From NCBI GenBank assembly GCA_029213195.1, contig JARGNI010000005.1, positions 62,001-126,000 of the forward strand: a stretch of DNA of 64,000 bases. Direction: 5' to 3'. Source of the stretch: Verrucomicrobiales bacterium (GTDB lineage: Bacteria; Verrucomicrobiota; Verrucomicrobiia; Verrucomicrobiales; DEV007). Below are positions 7,859 to 12,217 of this stretch, piece after piece. Position 1 is the first letter of the stretch; each line of letters opens with the position of its first letter. A program made the translations under genes and the position numbers. Under the pieces are notes generated by a model, which saw nothing but the letters and a program-made list of their open reading frames with translations, was not told the DNA's origin and ran no database searches.

Positions 7859-10528
7859 ATGACTCACTACCCCCTTTCCTCCCAAAACGATCCTGAATCG
7901 ACACGGCTCCGGCTTGATCCCTCTCGCCGGACCAATTGGAAGCTCTGGGGGCCCTATCTTTCGGAGCGGCAATGGGGAACGGTGCGCGAAGACTACTCGG
8001 CCGATTCGGATGCATGGAGAAGTTTTCCTCGCGAGCATGCGCCGTCACGGGCCTACCGCTGGGGCGAAGACGGACTCATGGGATGGACCGATCGCTACGG
8101 CCGTCTCTGTTTTTCCCTCTCGCTCTGGAACGGACAGGACAAGATCCTCAAGGAACGCCTCTTCGGACTCACAAATCACGAGGGCAATCACGGAGAAGAC
8201 GTCAAGGAACTCTACTACTACCTGGATTCCACCCCGACCCATTCCTATGCGCGCTCTCTCTACAAGTATCCACAAGCAGCCTTCCCCTACGACGATTTGA
8301 TCCAAACCAATCAGAAGCGCTCGCGGGATGAACCGGAGTATGAACTCGAAGACACAGGGGTGCTGGACGAGAATCGATTCTTCGATGTAACTGTAATCTA
8401 TGCCAAGGAAAGCCCGGAGGACCTGCTCATCGAAATCCTGGTCACCAACCATGGCCCGGATGCCACTCCGATCAGCCTCCTCCCTACCATCTGGTTCCGC
8501 AACACATGGAGTTGGGGACGCGAAGGCGAGGACATGACGAGCAAGCCGGAGATTCGGCTGGAAGACGGGAAACTGATCACCCGGCATGATACCCTCCCTC
8601 CCTACCAGTTCTTGGCCGAGGAGGCAGACGAAATTTGGCTGACCGACAACGAGACAAATCCTGAGCTTTGGGGGAAAGCGAAGAAGAAGGTCGAAGGCTA
8701 CGGAAAAAAGGATGCCTTTGCGAAGGCTCTGCTCGAAGGGAACAAAGAAGCTCTCCTCTCAGATGGATGCGGGACCAAGGCCGCGGCGATGATCACCACA
8801 GAGATCCCGAGCGGAGAGTCCAAACGCTATCGATTTCGCCTCTCCAGGCTGGAGGAAGCGCCGCGTCCGCAGGATAGTTTTGGCGAGGCTTTCACTCGCA
8901 CTCTCGAGCTTCGGAAAGAAGAAGCCGACCAGTTCTACGATGCGAGACATCCGGTAGAGCTCTCCGAAGCCAAGACTGAAATCCTTCGCCAGTCCTACGC
9001 GGGACTCCTCTGGACCAAGCAATTCTACCATTTCATCGTCAACGACTGGCTCGACGGGGATCCCGGCAACCCCGCACCGCCTCAGCGAAAGCATGGTCGG
9101 AACAGCCACTGGAGCCATCTCTTCAACCGGGATATCATCAGTATGCCCGACAAATGGGAGTATCCTTGGTATGCCGCCTGGGATCTCGCCTTTCACGCTC
9201 TCCCTCTTGCCGAGATCGATCCCCATTTTGCGAAACGACAGCTGCGGCTTTTCCTGCGGGAGTGGTATATGCATCCCAATGGACAAATTCCTGCCTACGA
9301 GTGGAATTTCAGCGATGTGAATCCCCCCGTCCACGCCTGGGCAGTCTGGCGAGTCTACAAGATTGCCGCGGCGCGGGGAGATCGGGATCTCTCCTTCCTC
9401 GCTTCCTGTTTTCAAAAGCTCCTCATGAACTTCACCTGGTGGGTCAACCGCAAGGACCCGGAAGGAAACAGCCTCTTCTCCGGAGGATTTCTCGGCCTCG
9501 ACAATATCGGAGTCTTCGACCGATCCGAGGGCATCCCTTTCGGAGCGACTCTCGAGCAGGCCGATGGAACCGGCTGGATGGCCTTCTACTGCACGACCAT
9601 GCTCGCCATGGCGATTGAGCTTGCCGAGGAGGACAAGGCCTATGAGGACCTTGCATCGAAGTTCTTCGAGCACTTTGTCACCATCACCCTGGCGATGAAT
9701 GGACACGGGCGTCACCACGGGCTCTGGTGTGAAGAAGAGGGCTTCTACTACGACTGGCTCGTCGATTCGAAGAAGAAACGCCGCCCCCTCGCGGTGCGTT
9801 CGCTCGTCGGTCTCCTCCCCATGATCGCCGTGGAGATTCTCGATCAGGATCATCTTGAGCCGCTTTCGGGATTCCGCGAGCGAACCGACTGGTTTCTTCG
9901 CTACCGCCCCCACCTCGCGGAGTCGGTTTCCTCCCTCGATGAGAATGGGACTCGTCGCCTCCTCTCCTGCTGCTCCAAGGAACGACTGAGAAAAATTCTG
10001 ACCTTTCTCTTCGACGAGGAAGAATTCCTTTCCCCCTACGGCATTCGATCGCTTTCGAAATACCATGAGAAACATCCGTTCTCCGTTGATATCGAAGGCG
10101 GCATTCACACGGTCGAATACACTCCAGGGGAATCCGATTCTCCGATGTTCGGAGGGAACTCGAACTGGCGTGGACCGATCTGGTTCCCGATGAACTATCT
10201 TCTCATCGAAGCGCTCGAACGATACCACCATTTCTATGGCGACGAGTTTCAAGTCGAGTTCCCAACCGGTTCAGGCGATTTCATCCATCTGAAGGAAGCA
10301 GCACGAAGAATCAGCGAACGCCTTGTCAGCCTCTTCGATCACCACCCCGAAGGTTCCCGTCCCAGCCATGGAGATTCGCGACTCCACGCCAAGGGGGAAG
10401 TCGGTGAGGACTTGATCCACTTTTACGAGTATTTTCACGCCGAAACCGGAGAAGGTCTCGGAGCCAGTCACCAGACCGGCTGGACCTCGCTGGTAAGCCG
10501 TCTCATCCACAAAAATGACTTCGGCTGA
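7859..10528 (+). CDS. GH63-like (MGH1-type) glycoside hydrolase, cytoplasmic
   Basis: A protein of 889 residues with no signal peptide. The C-terminal two-thirds is an (alpha/alpha)6-barrel of the glucosidase I/mannosylglycerate hydrolase type. Key signatures are NRDIISMPDKWEYPWYAAWD with LAFH following, YEWNFSDVNPPVHAWA, and the late SNWRGPIWFPMNYLL segment typical of GH63. The N-terminal third (RTNWKLWGPYLSERQWGTVRED) is the beta-rich domain seen in large bacterial members. The likely role is hydrolysis of glucosyl or mannosyl-glycerate type compounds; the substrate is inferred only. The start chosen (MTHYPLSSQ) fits the family better than an in-frame upstream start at 7802. The 7720-7858 leader holds a CTGTC/GACAG small repeat and no other gene. 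Confidence 0.87.
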   Translation: MTHYPLSSQNDPESTRLRLDPSRRTNWKLWGPYLSERQWGTVREDYSADSDAWRSFPREHAPSRAYRWGEDGLMGWTDRYGRLCFSLSLWNGQDKILKERLFGLTNHEGNHGEDVKELYYYLDSTPTHSYARSLYKYPQAAFPYDDLIQTNQKRSRDEPEYELEDTGVLDENRFFDVTVIYAKESPEDLLIEILVTNHGPDATPISLLPTIWFRNTWSWGREGEDMTSKPEIRLEDGKLITRHDTLPPYQFLAEEADEIWLTDNETNPELWGKAKKKVEGYGKKDAFAKALLEGNKEALLSDGCGTKAAAMITTEIPSGESKRYRFRLSRLEEAPRPQDSFGEAFTRTLELRKEEADQFYDARHPVELSEAKTEILRQSYAGLLWTKQFYHFIVNDWLDGDPGNPAPPQRKHGRNSHWSHLFNRDIISMPDKWEYPWYAAWDLAFHALPLAEIDPHFAKRQLRLFLREWYMHPNGQIPAYEWNFSDVNPPVHAWAVWRVYKIAAARGDRDLSFLASCFQKLLMNFTWWVNRKDPEGNSLFSGGFLGLDNIGVFDRSEGIPFGATLEQADGTGWMAFYCTTMLAMAIELAEEDKAYEDLASKFFEHFVTITLAMNGHGRHHGLWCEEEGFYYDWLVDSKKKRRPLAVRSLVGLLPMIAVEILDQDHLEPLSGFRERTDWFLRYRPHLAESVSSLDENGTRRLLSCCSKERLRKILTFLFDEEEFLSPYGIRSLSKYHEKHPFSVDIEGGIHTVEYTPGESDSPMFGGNSNWRGPIWFPMNYLLIEALERYHHFYGDEFQVEFPTGSGDFIHLKEAARRISERLVSLFDHHPEGSRPSHGDSRLHAKGEVGEDLIHFYEYFHAETGEGLGASHQTGWTSLVSRLIHKNDFG

Positions 10529-10637
10529 AAGTTGCTCCAACCGCACAAGATATCTGTTTTCAGTTTTTTTAGATCCACCACATTTTAAACTACATCCATA
10601 TTTTCTGGAGAATTCTCCGCGTGTGGAAAAGCCTTGT

Positions 10638-10686
10638 GCCCCATATGTTGTGGTGTTTTTGCCATTGACACCCCAACATCTAGTTG
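10638..10686 (+). promoter_or_regulatory. Two candidate NrdR boxes around a TTGACA -35 element
   Basis: Box 1 (10638-10653, GCCCCATATGTTGTGG) and box 2 (10671-10686, CCCCAACATCTAGTTG) both resemble the NrdR-box pattern CxAtATxTxGtg. Their starts are 33 bases apart, about three helical turns, as known for NrdR tandem boxes. A perfect -35 hexamer TTGACA lies at 10665-10670 between them, so box 2 would fall in the promoter spacer. No convincing -10 was found. Autorepression of nrdR is inferred. Confidence 0.48.
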
Positions 10687-10703
10687 CAACTCTTATTCGC
10701 GAG

Positions 10704-10717
10704 TCGCAAATTTGCGA
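10704..10717. repeat. Perfect 14-bp palindrome upstream of nrdR
   Basis: TCGCAAATTTGCGA is its own reverse complement and lies 11 bases before the nrdR start codon, within the probable leader. It could be an operator for a dimeric regulator or part of the promoter -10 region. Its AT-rich centre is consistent with protein binding; no regulator can be named. Confidence 0.45.
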
Positions 10718-10728
10718 TTCATAGGAGG

Positions 10729-11232
10729 ATGCGCTGCGTAAAATGTCATAGCCTTGAGGACAAGGTGATCGATTCGAGATTGGCCAAAGATGGCTTCTCG
10801 ATCCGTCGTCGTCGCGAATGCCTGGATTGTGGACATCGATTCACAACGTATGAACAGGTCGAGAGACGAGATGTGCTCGTCATCAAGCGAGATGGCACCC
10901 GAGAGCCTTTCAAGCGAGAGAAGCTCCTCAGCGGACTCATCAAGGCCTGCGAAAAGCGTCCCGTTTCCCTTGAAACACTGGAAACGGCCGTCGACGAGAT
11001 CGTCAACGAGCTGACCTCGGAGAATTTGAAAGAAATCCCCAGCCGCATGATCGGGCCCAAGGTCATGTCACGGCTGCAGGGAATCGATCCCGTAGCCTTT
11101 GTTCGCTACGCTTCGGTCTATCGTCAATTCCAGGATGTCGGCGAATTCAGCGAGGTCATTCAGTCGCTGGAGAATGCTCCCATCGACAGCCTACTGCAGC
11201 CCGATCTGTTCGAGTCCGGGCAGAAGAACTGA
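10729..11232 (+). CDS. nrdR: Transcriptional regulator NrdR
   Basis: A 167-residue repressor of ribonucleotide reductase genes in the cytoplasm. The N-terminal zinc ribbon has Cys3, Cys6, Cys31 and Cys34 (CVKC and CLDC) and the invariant DSRLAKDG, IRRRRECLDCGHRFTTYE region. The ATP-cone domain follows (VIKRDGTREPFKREKL through DPVAFVRYASVYRQF). NrdR senses ATP/dATP and binds NrdR boxes. The ATG at 10729 gives the family's canonical N-terminus; AGGAGG immediately abuts it, so the spacing is unusually short. Ribonucleotide reductase genes are not in this window. The gene probably leads an operon with the following two genes. Confidence 0.96.
   Translation: MRCVKCHSLEDKVIDSRLAKDGFSIRRRRECLDCGHRFTTYEQVERRDVLVIKRDGTREPFKREKLLSGLIKACEKRPVSLETLETAVDEIVNELTSENLKEIPSRMIGPKVMSRLQGIDPVAFVRYASVYRQFQDVGEFSEVIQSLENAPIDSLLQPDLFESGQKN

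Positions 11233-11863: not shown

Positions 11864-12217
<354 letters not shown>

Follow-up and report, generated by a model that had tools for sequence, protein, structure and literature searches.

NrdR controls 'often, its own' gene (PMC9110341), and box pairs occur at nrdRJ in Streptomyces and Propionibacterium (PMC9110341, PMC3848588). In Streptomyces coelicolor and Propionibacterium acnes, the nrdRJ operon starts with nrdR and has tandem boxes over its promoter, which places it under autoregulation. More generally, the reductase genes of nrd operons are preceded by two boxes with a spacing of about three helix turns (PMC12051234). In Proteobacteria, an NrdR orthologue likewise controls the nrd genes, but no case of nrdR autoregulation was found in a survey of 196 genomes (PMC5343134), unlike the situation proposed below.

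The stretch of DNA analysed here (the window, 64,000 nucleotides of a Verrucomicrobiales genome) resembles the nrdRJ operon in that tandem boxes lie over the promoter and nrdR comes first (Table 1). On the sequence, it is highly probable that the nrdR promoter is autoregulated, NrdR with dATP and ATP binding both boxes and repressing its own gene. The locus differs from nrdRJ in that nrdR is followed not by nrdJ but by a companion gene and a HIT-domain gene, and in that the reductase is encoded on another contig instead of next to nrdR. Compared with nrd operons in general, the spacing of about three helix turns is shared, and is here 33 (or 32) bp at nrdR and 31 (30-32) bp at nrdB. Self-control of nrdR is already published for other bacteria, to which the present locus adds a probable further case. 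Among the literature matches listed, we found no paper on nrdR self-control in Verrucomicrobiota, and those joining NrdR with Verrucomicrobia, as far as their available text goes, included none on nrdR promoters of that group. This case comes from Verrucomicrobiota, is conserved across a genus and does not involve an nrdRJ operon.

Table 1. Features of the nrdR region, numbered from the first base of the window
Feature	Position	Strand	Basis or remark
NrdR box 1 (core CCATATGTTG, 10641-10650)	10638..10653		Sequence; genus conservation of the pair
-35 hexamer TTGACA, perfect	10665..10670	+	Sequence; between both boxes
NrdR box 2 (core CAACATCTAG, 10674-10683)	10671..10686		Sequence; in the 17-bp -35/-10 spacer
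Left arm of dyad TTGCAACTC-N8-GAGTCGCAA	10684..10692		Dyad searches, pair counts
-10-like hexamer AACTCT, weak, 17 bp past -35	10688..10693	+	Sequence; column counts
Right arm of dyad, GAGTCGCAA, at predicted start (~10700)	10701..10709		Dyad searches, column counts
Palindrome TCGCAAATTTGCGA	10704..10717		Sequence; 11 bases before ATG; may form 8-pair RNA hairpin (10701-10720)
nrdR, 167 aa, Zn-ribbon and ATP-cone	10729..11232	+	TIGR00244, Pfam
Companion gene, 187 aa	11300..11863	+	Conserved; ATP-cone-like fold, model residues 5-92
HIT-domain gene, after companion	11873..12217	+	Sequence annotation

Tandem boxes at nrdR and nrdB

The gene behind the boxes is nrdR. Its product matched TIGR00244 at 192 bits against a cut-off of 124.65, Pfam placed both a Zn-ribbon and an ATP-cone in it, and it was the sole TIGR00244 match in the 5.9 Mb genome (115 contigs). 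Residues D15, R17 and RRRR at 26-29, which matter for DNA binding by published NrdR (PMC9110341), were invariant in 19 aligned proteins, its own included. The start codon is the ATG at 10729. An AGGAGG abuts this codon (10723-10731), a very short distance if it serves as a ribosome-binding site; of 50 loci, this nrdR alone has an AGGAGG no more than 20 bases from its start.

The initial annotation had described two NrdR-box-like sites 33 bases apart around a perfect TTGACA, and direct reading of the sequence confirmed this. The 33 bp between the box centres correspond to about three helix turns and leave a 17-bp gap between the 16-mers. The pair has the further properties of an operator: the boxes are palindromic, the terminal C and G of each core are conserved, and the promoter, judged from its sequence alone, is overlapped, box 2 lying directly past the perfect -35 hexamer. 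Retention of the core-end C and G in both boxes bears on function, as inverting them cut binding 50-fold in Streptomyces (PMC9110341).

The box pair at nrdR is far beyond chance. Allowing up to one mismatch, the pair pattern matched once in the window, compared with a mean of 0.03 in 100 shuffles. On a simple eight-point scale per box, the nrdR pair totalled 15, and when its own upstream region was Markov-resampled 20000 times, five copies reached this value. Resampling 51 nrdR upstream regions gave 18 totals of at least 14 among 10200 copies; 304 other real 250-base windows from the same loci gave none.

nrdR was found in 29 of the 33 genus genomes searched. The comparison of nrdR upstream regions that had been suggested as a check gave a pair scoring at least 14 in 28 of these 29 members, with 24 at 33 bp and four at 32 bp; the remaining member (G029) has nrdR without a pair reaching that score and was excluded from the column and dyad counts, hence n = 28 below. 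Each base of TTGACA was conserved in 25-28 of the 28 aligned members, and the C, A, AT and G of the box 2 core were invariant in all of them. The -10-like hexamer had A at its second place in 24/28 and T at its sixth in 26/28. A sigma-70 scan called no promoter in the nrdR upstream region, this hexamer included. Because the -10 is weak, we only infer the transcription start, predicted near 10700. Beyond the genus, a pair scoring at least 14 at 31-33 bp was present in nine of the 22 further regions upstream of nrdR that came from the family and order. A sample of 288 genomes from the phylum, in which the present genome was the sole genus member, yielded the strict pattern followed by an NrdR-like start in six (three plus three, the present one included), the other five being known by the NrdR-like start alone and the pattern missing degenerate boxes. 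In one genome that is Akkermansia-like by grouping (G035, locus L165), the box-like sites on either side of TTGACA are too degenerate to reach the score.

The reductase genes provide the second place where NrdR boxes would be expected. The genome gave one match each to the large-chain and small-chain reductase families and none to the anaerobic NRDD family; nrdB-nrdA, adjacent genes on contig C115, is the only class I reductase found in it. Absence of the boxes from the genome's nrd promoters had been named in advance as an outcome that would speak against self-control, and the search for them found instead a tandem pair upstream of nrdB, CTACATCTTG and CCAGATATGG, 31 bp apart. Together with conservation of the nrdR pair in the genus, this pair lends good support to the self-control proposed in the initial annotation. 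Two exact cores 31-33 bp apart occurred at three places in the genome among the matches listed, namely nrdR, nrdB and one site on contig C105; the last lies inside a 644-aa open frame and was taken as chance. A further box-like sequence, CACTATCTAG, follows the second box of the nrdB pair at a distance of 47 bp (locus L052, 1239-1248).

The nrdB pair was present at 25 of the 26 genus loci examined, with 19 at 31 bp, three at 30 bp and three at 32 bp, and one genome (G004) had no credible pair upstream of nrdB. In these spacings, score ties in G005 and G026 (33 bp) and in G018 (32 bp) had a weak upstream element and were settled for the pair common to relatives. Within the genus, the nrdR pair is thus kept at 32-33 bp and the nrdB pair at 30-32 bp, so that the two targets keep different spacings. 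According to PMC12051234, gaps of 15-17 bp were in general best for the four NrdRs tested, and a 17-bp gap lay within the best-bound range for three of the four (its Table 5); for one of the four, binding was about eight times worse at 17 bp than at 16 bp, and S. pneumoniae NrdR is given as weaker at 17 bp. One genus with two box spacings at two NrdR targets offers a natural test of this published link between spacing and affinity.

Palindrome and interrupted dyad near the predicted start

The perfect palindrome that the initial annotation had placed near the nrdR start is there as described. The suggested binding of a second regulator to it is unproven: a search of the 5.9 Mb genome with up to one mismatch gave no further site, which led us to reject the palindrome as a regulon-wide operator, and at least five of its six pairs were in register in seven of 28 genus members. 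With two mismatches allowed it was the sole match in the window, but a match also turned up in 31 of 100 shuffles; an inverted repeat as good within the short leader arose in 0.8% of 500 base shuffles. We likewise rejected the idea that the palindrome is a third NrdR box. It is centred 32 bp downstream of the centre of box 2, but has G and C in place of the core C and G, an inversion that weakened binding in Streptomyces (PMC9110341). Among the matches listed, one relative (G021) has a box-pattern match 33 bp past box 2.

A longer, interrupted dyad that partly overlaps the palindrome, TTGCAACTC-N8-GAGTCGCAA (right arm also given as GAGTCGCA), spans the -10 and the predicted start and, by the counts in aligned relatives, is conserved somewhat better than the palindrome. 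Its arms pair at 149 of 252 cells, compared with at most 77 when slid by 1-5 bases, and column shuffles, which ignore relatedness, reached this value in 2 of 2000. At nrdR it was found within one mismatch in 12 of 32 genus genomes, and GAGTYGCA occurred in 17 of 28 members. These figures are consistent with dyad and palindrome together (10684-10717) forming an operator for a second dimeric regulator of nrdR, a tentative reading to which we give rather less than even weight. Conservation of the left arm may be due to its overlap with box 2 and the -10; at least six of the nine pairs are held by 15 of 28 members; and a wider regulon was not seen, as far as the gene examined at one such site in the present genome shows: away from nrdR, six genomes carry a total of seven single dyads with at most one mismatch, including an exact one in G023.

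Alternatively, the palindrome may form an RNA hairpin at the start of the nrdR transcript and affect stability or translation, which we regard as doubtful. In the predicted fold of the leader (10700-10760), the 5' end forms an 8-pair stem, but this fold is no better than that of shuffled sequences (z -0.29). Pairing in the palindrome register (four-base gap) held at 80 of 168 cells over the 28 members. Shifts of up to five bases gave no more than 67, and none of 2000 column shuffles, again with relatedness ignored, reached the observed count. In two relatives (G005 and G026), GTCAC/GTGAC replaces GTCGC/GCGAC, so that both sides of the stem have changed, which speaks for a hairpin; besides the seven with the palindrome in register, there are other members with dyads in a nearby register.

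The gene following nrdR

The companion gene begins after a gap of 67 bases, in which no terminator was called on that strand. Of 37 loci tested, 31 have the companion after nrdR (25 of the 29 whose 3' sequence was long enough, 24 of these 25 having built the profile, plus six of eight further ones), in five of the six families of the order and in 18/18 cases within the genus. The six loci without it are all f4 genomes (G037, G040, G044, G047, G050 and G053), which are also without a box pair scoring 14.

No Pfam or NCBIfam family matched the companion above its cut-off. The best Pfam match was the ATP-cone, PF03477, at 14.6 bits, below the gathering cut-off of 25.8; this family matched 10 of 24 companion members at E <= 1, the best at 0.0042. 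Profile comparison of the companion with NrdR found no relation, and we claim no residue correspondence between them because a MAFFT alignment of the two families was not sensible. The companion sequence had no match to solved structures below E 0.059. For its structure model (pLDDT 89.5), Foldseek returned NrdR in the top five rows at E 0.018-0.028, with none below 0.001 and the first row superposing poorly. VIA-align gave Z 8.4-9.8 over 84-87 residues against NrdR, where Z of 7-8 is common background and p97 rows reached about 6, and Z up to 10.1 against class III reductases over another range. Residues 5-92 of the model resemble the ATP-cones of NrdR and reductases, and the companion may be described as ATP-cone-like, without a Zn-ribbon and not as a proven member of the ATP-cone family.

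It is conceivable, though we consider it unlikely, that nrdR heads a self-controlled unit in which the companion is a dedicated partner that may join or tune NrdR or the reductase, and that another factor, which might be the companion itself, recognises the dyad over the -10. Were the companion such a partner, the feedback loop would control both repressor and partner. An ATP-cone-like neighbour of nrdR is a concrete candidate partner in nucleotide sensing.

Direction of control at the nrdR promoter

Considering the promoter layout, we propose the following scenario for negative autoregulation of nrdR. NrdR loaded with dATP and ATP would assemble as a tetramer on both nrdR boxes. Across the 28 genus members aligned, box 2 takes up the spacer between -35 and -10, and bound NrdR should therefore exclude RNA polymerase. 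NrdR would in this way lower its own synthesis in step with repression of nrdB-nrdA. For binding, repression and nucleotide dependence at nrdR, we infer by analogy with published NrdR work.

That the boxes are real NrdR sites but activating, or with little effect on nrdR, is very improbable: a Pseudomonas mutant in nrdR showed lower nrdJa expression under one condition (PMC4409342), and NrdR has been proposed as a presumed activator at topA, a role called questionable in PMC12051234, but box 2 within the spacer is the layout of a repressor site, and the upstream gene, on the same strand, ends at 10528, 110 bases before box 1. This upstream gene is overlapped by a 91-aa minus-strand frame (10271-10546). 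In three relatives (G013, G031 and G010; loci L012, L023 and L021), an extra box-like site stands about 40 bp upstream of box 1, roughly four helix turns from it.
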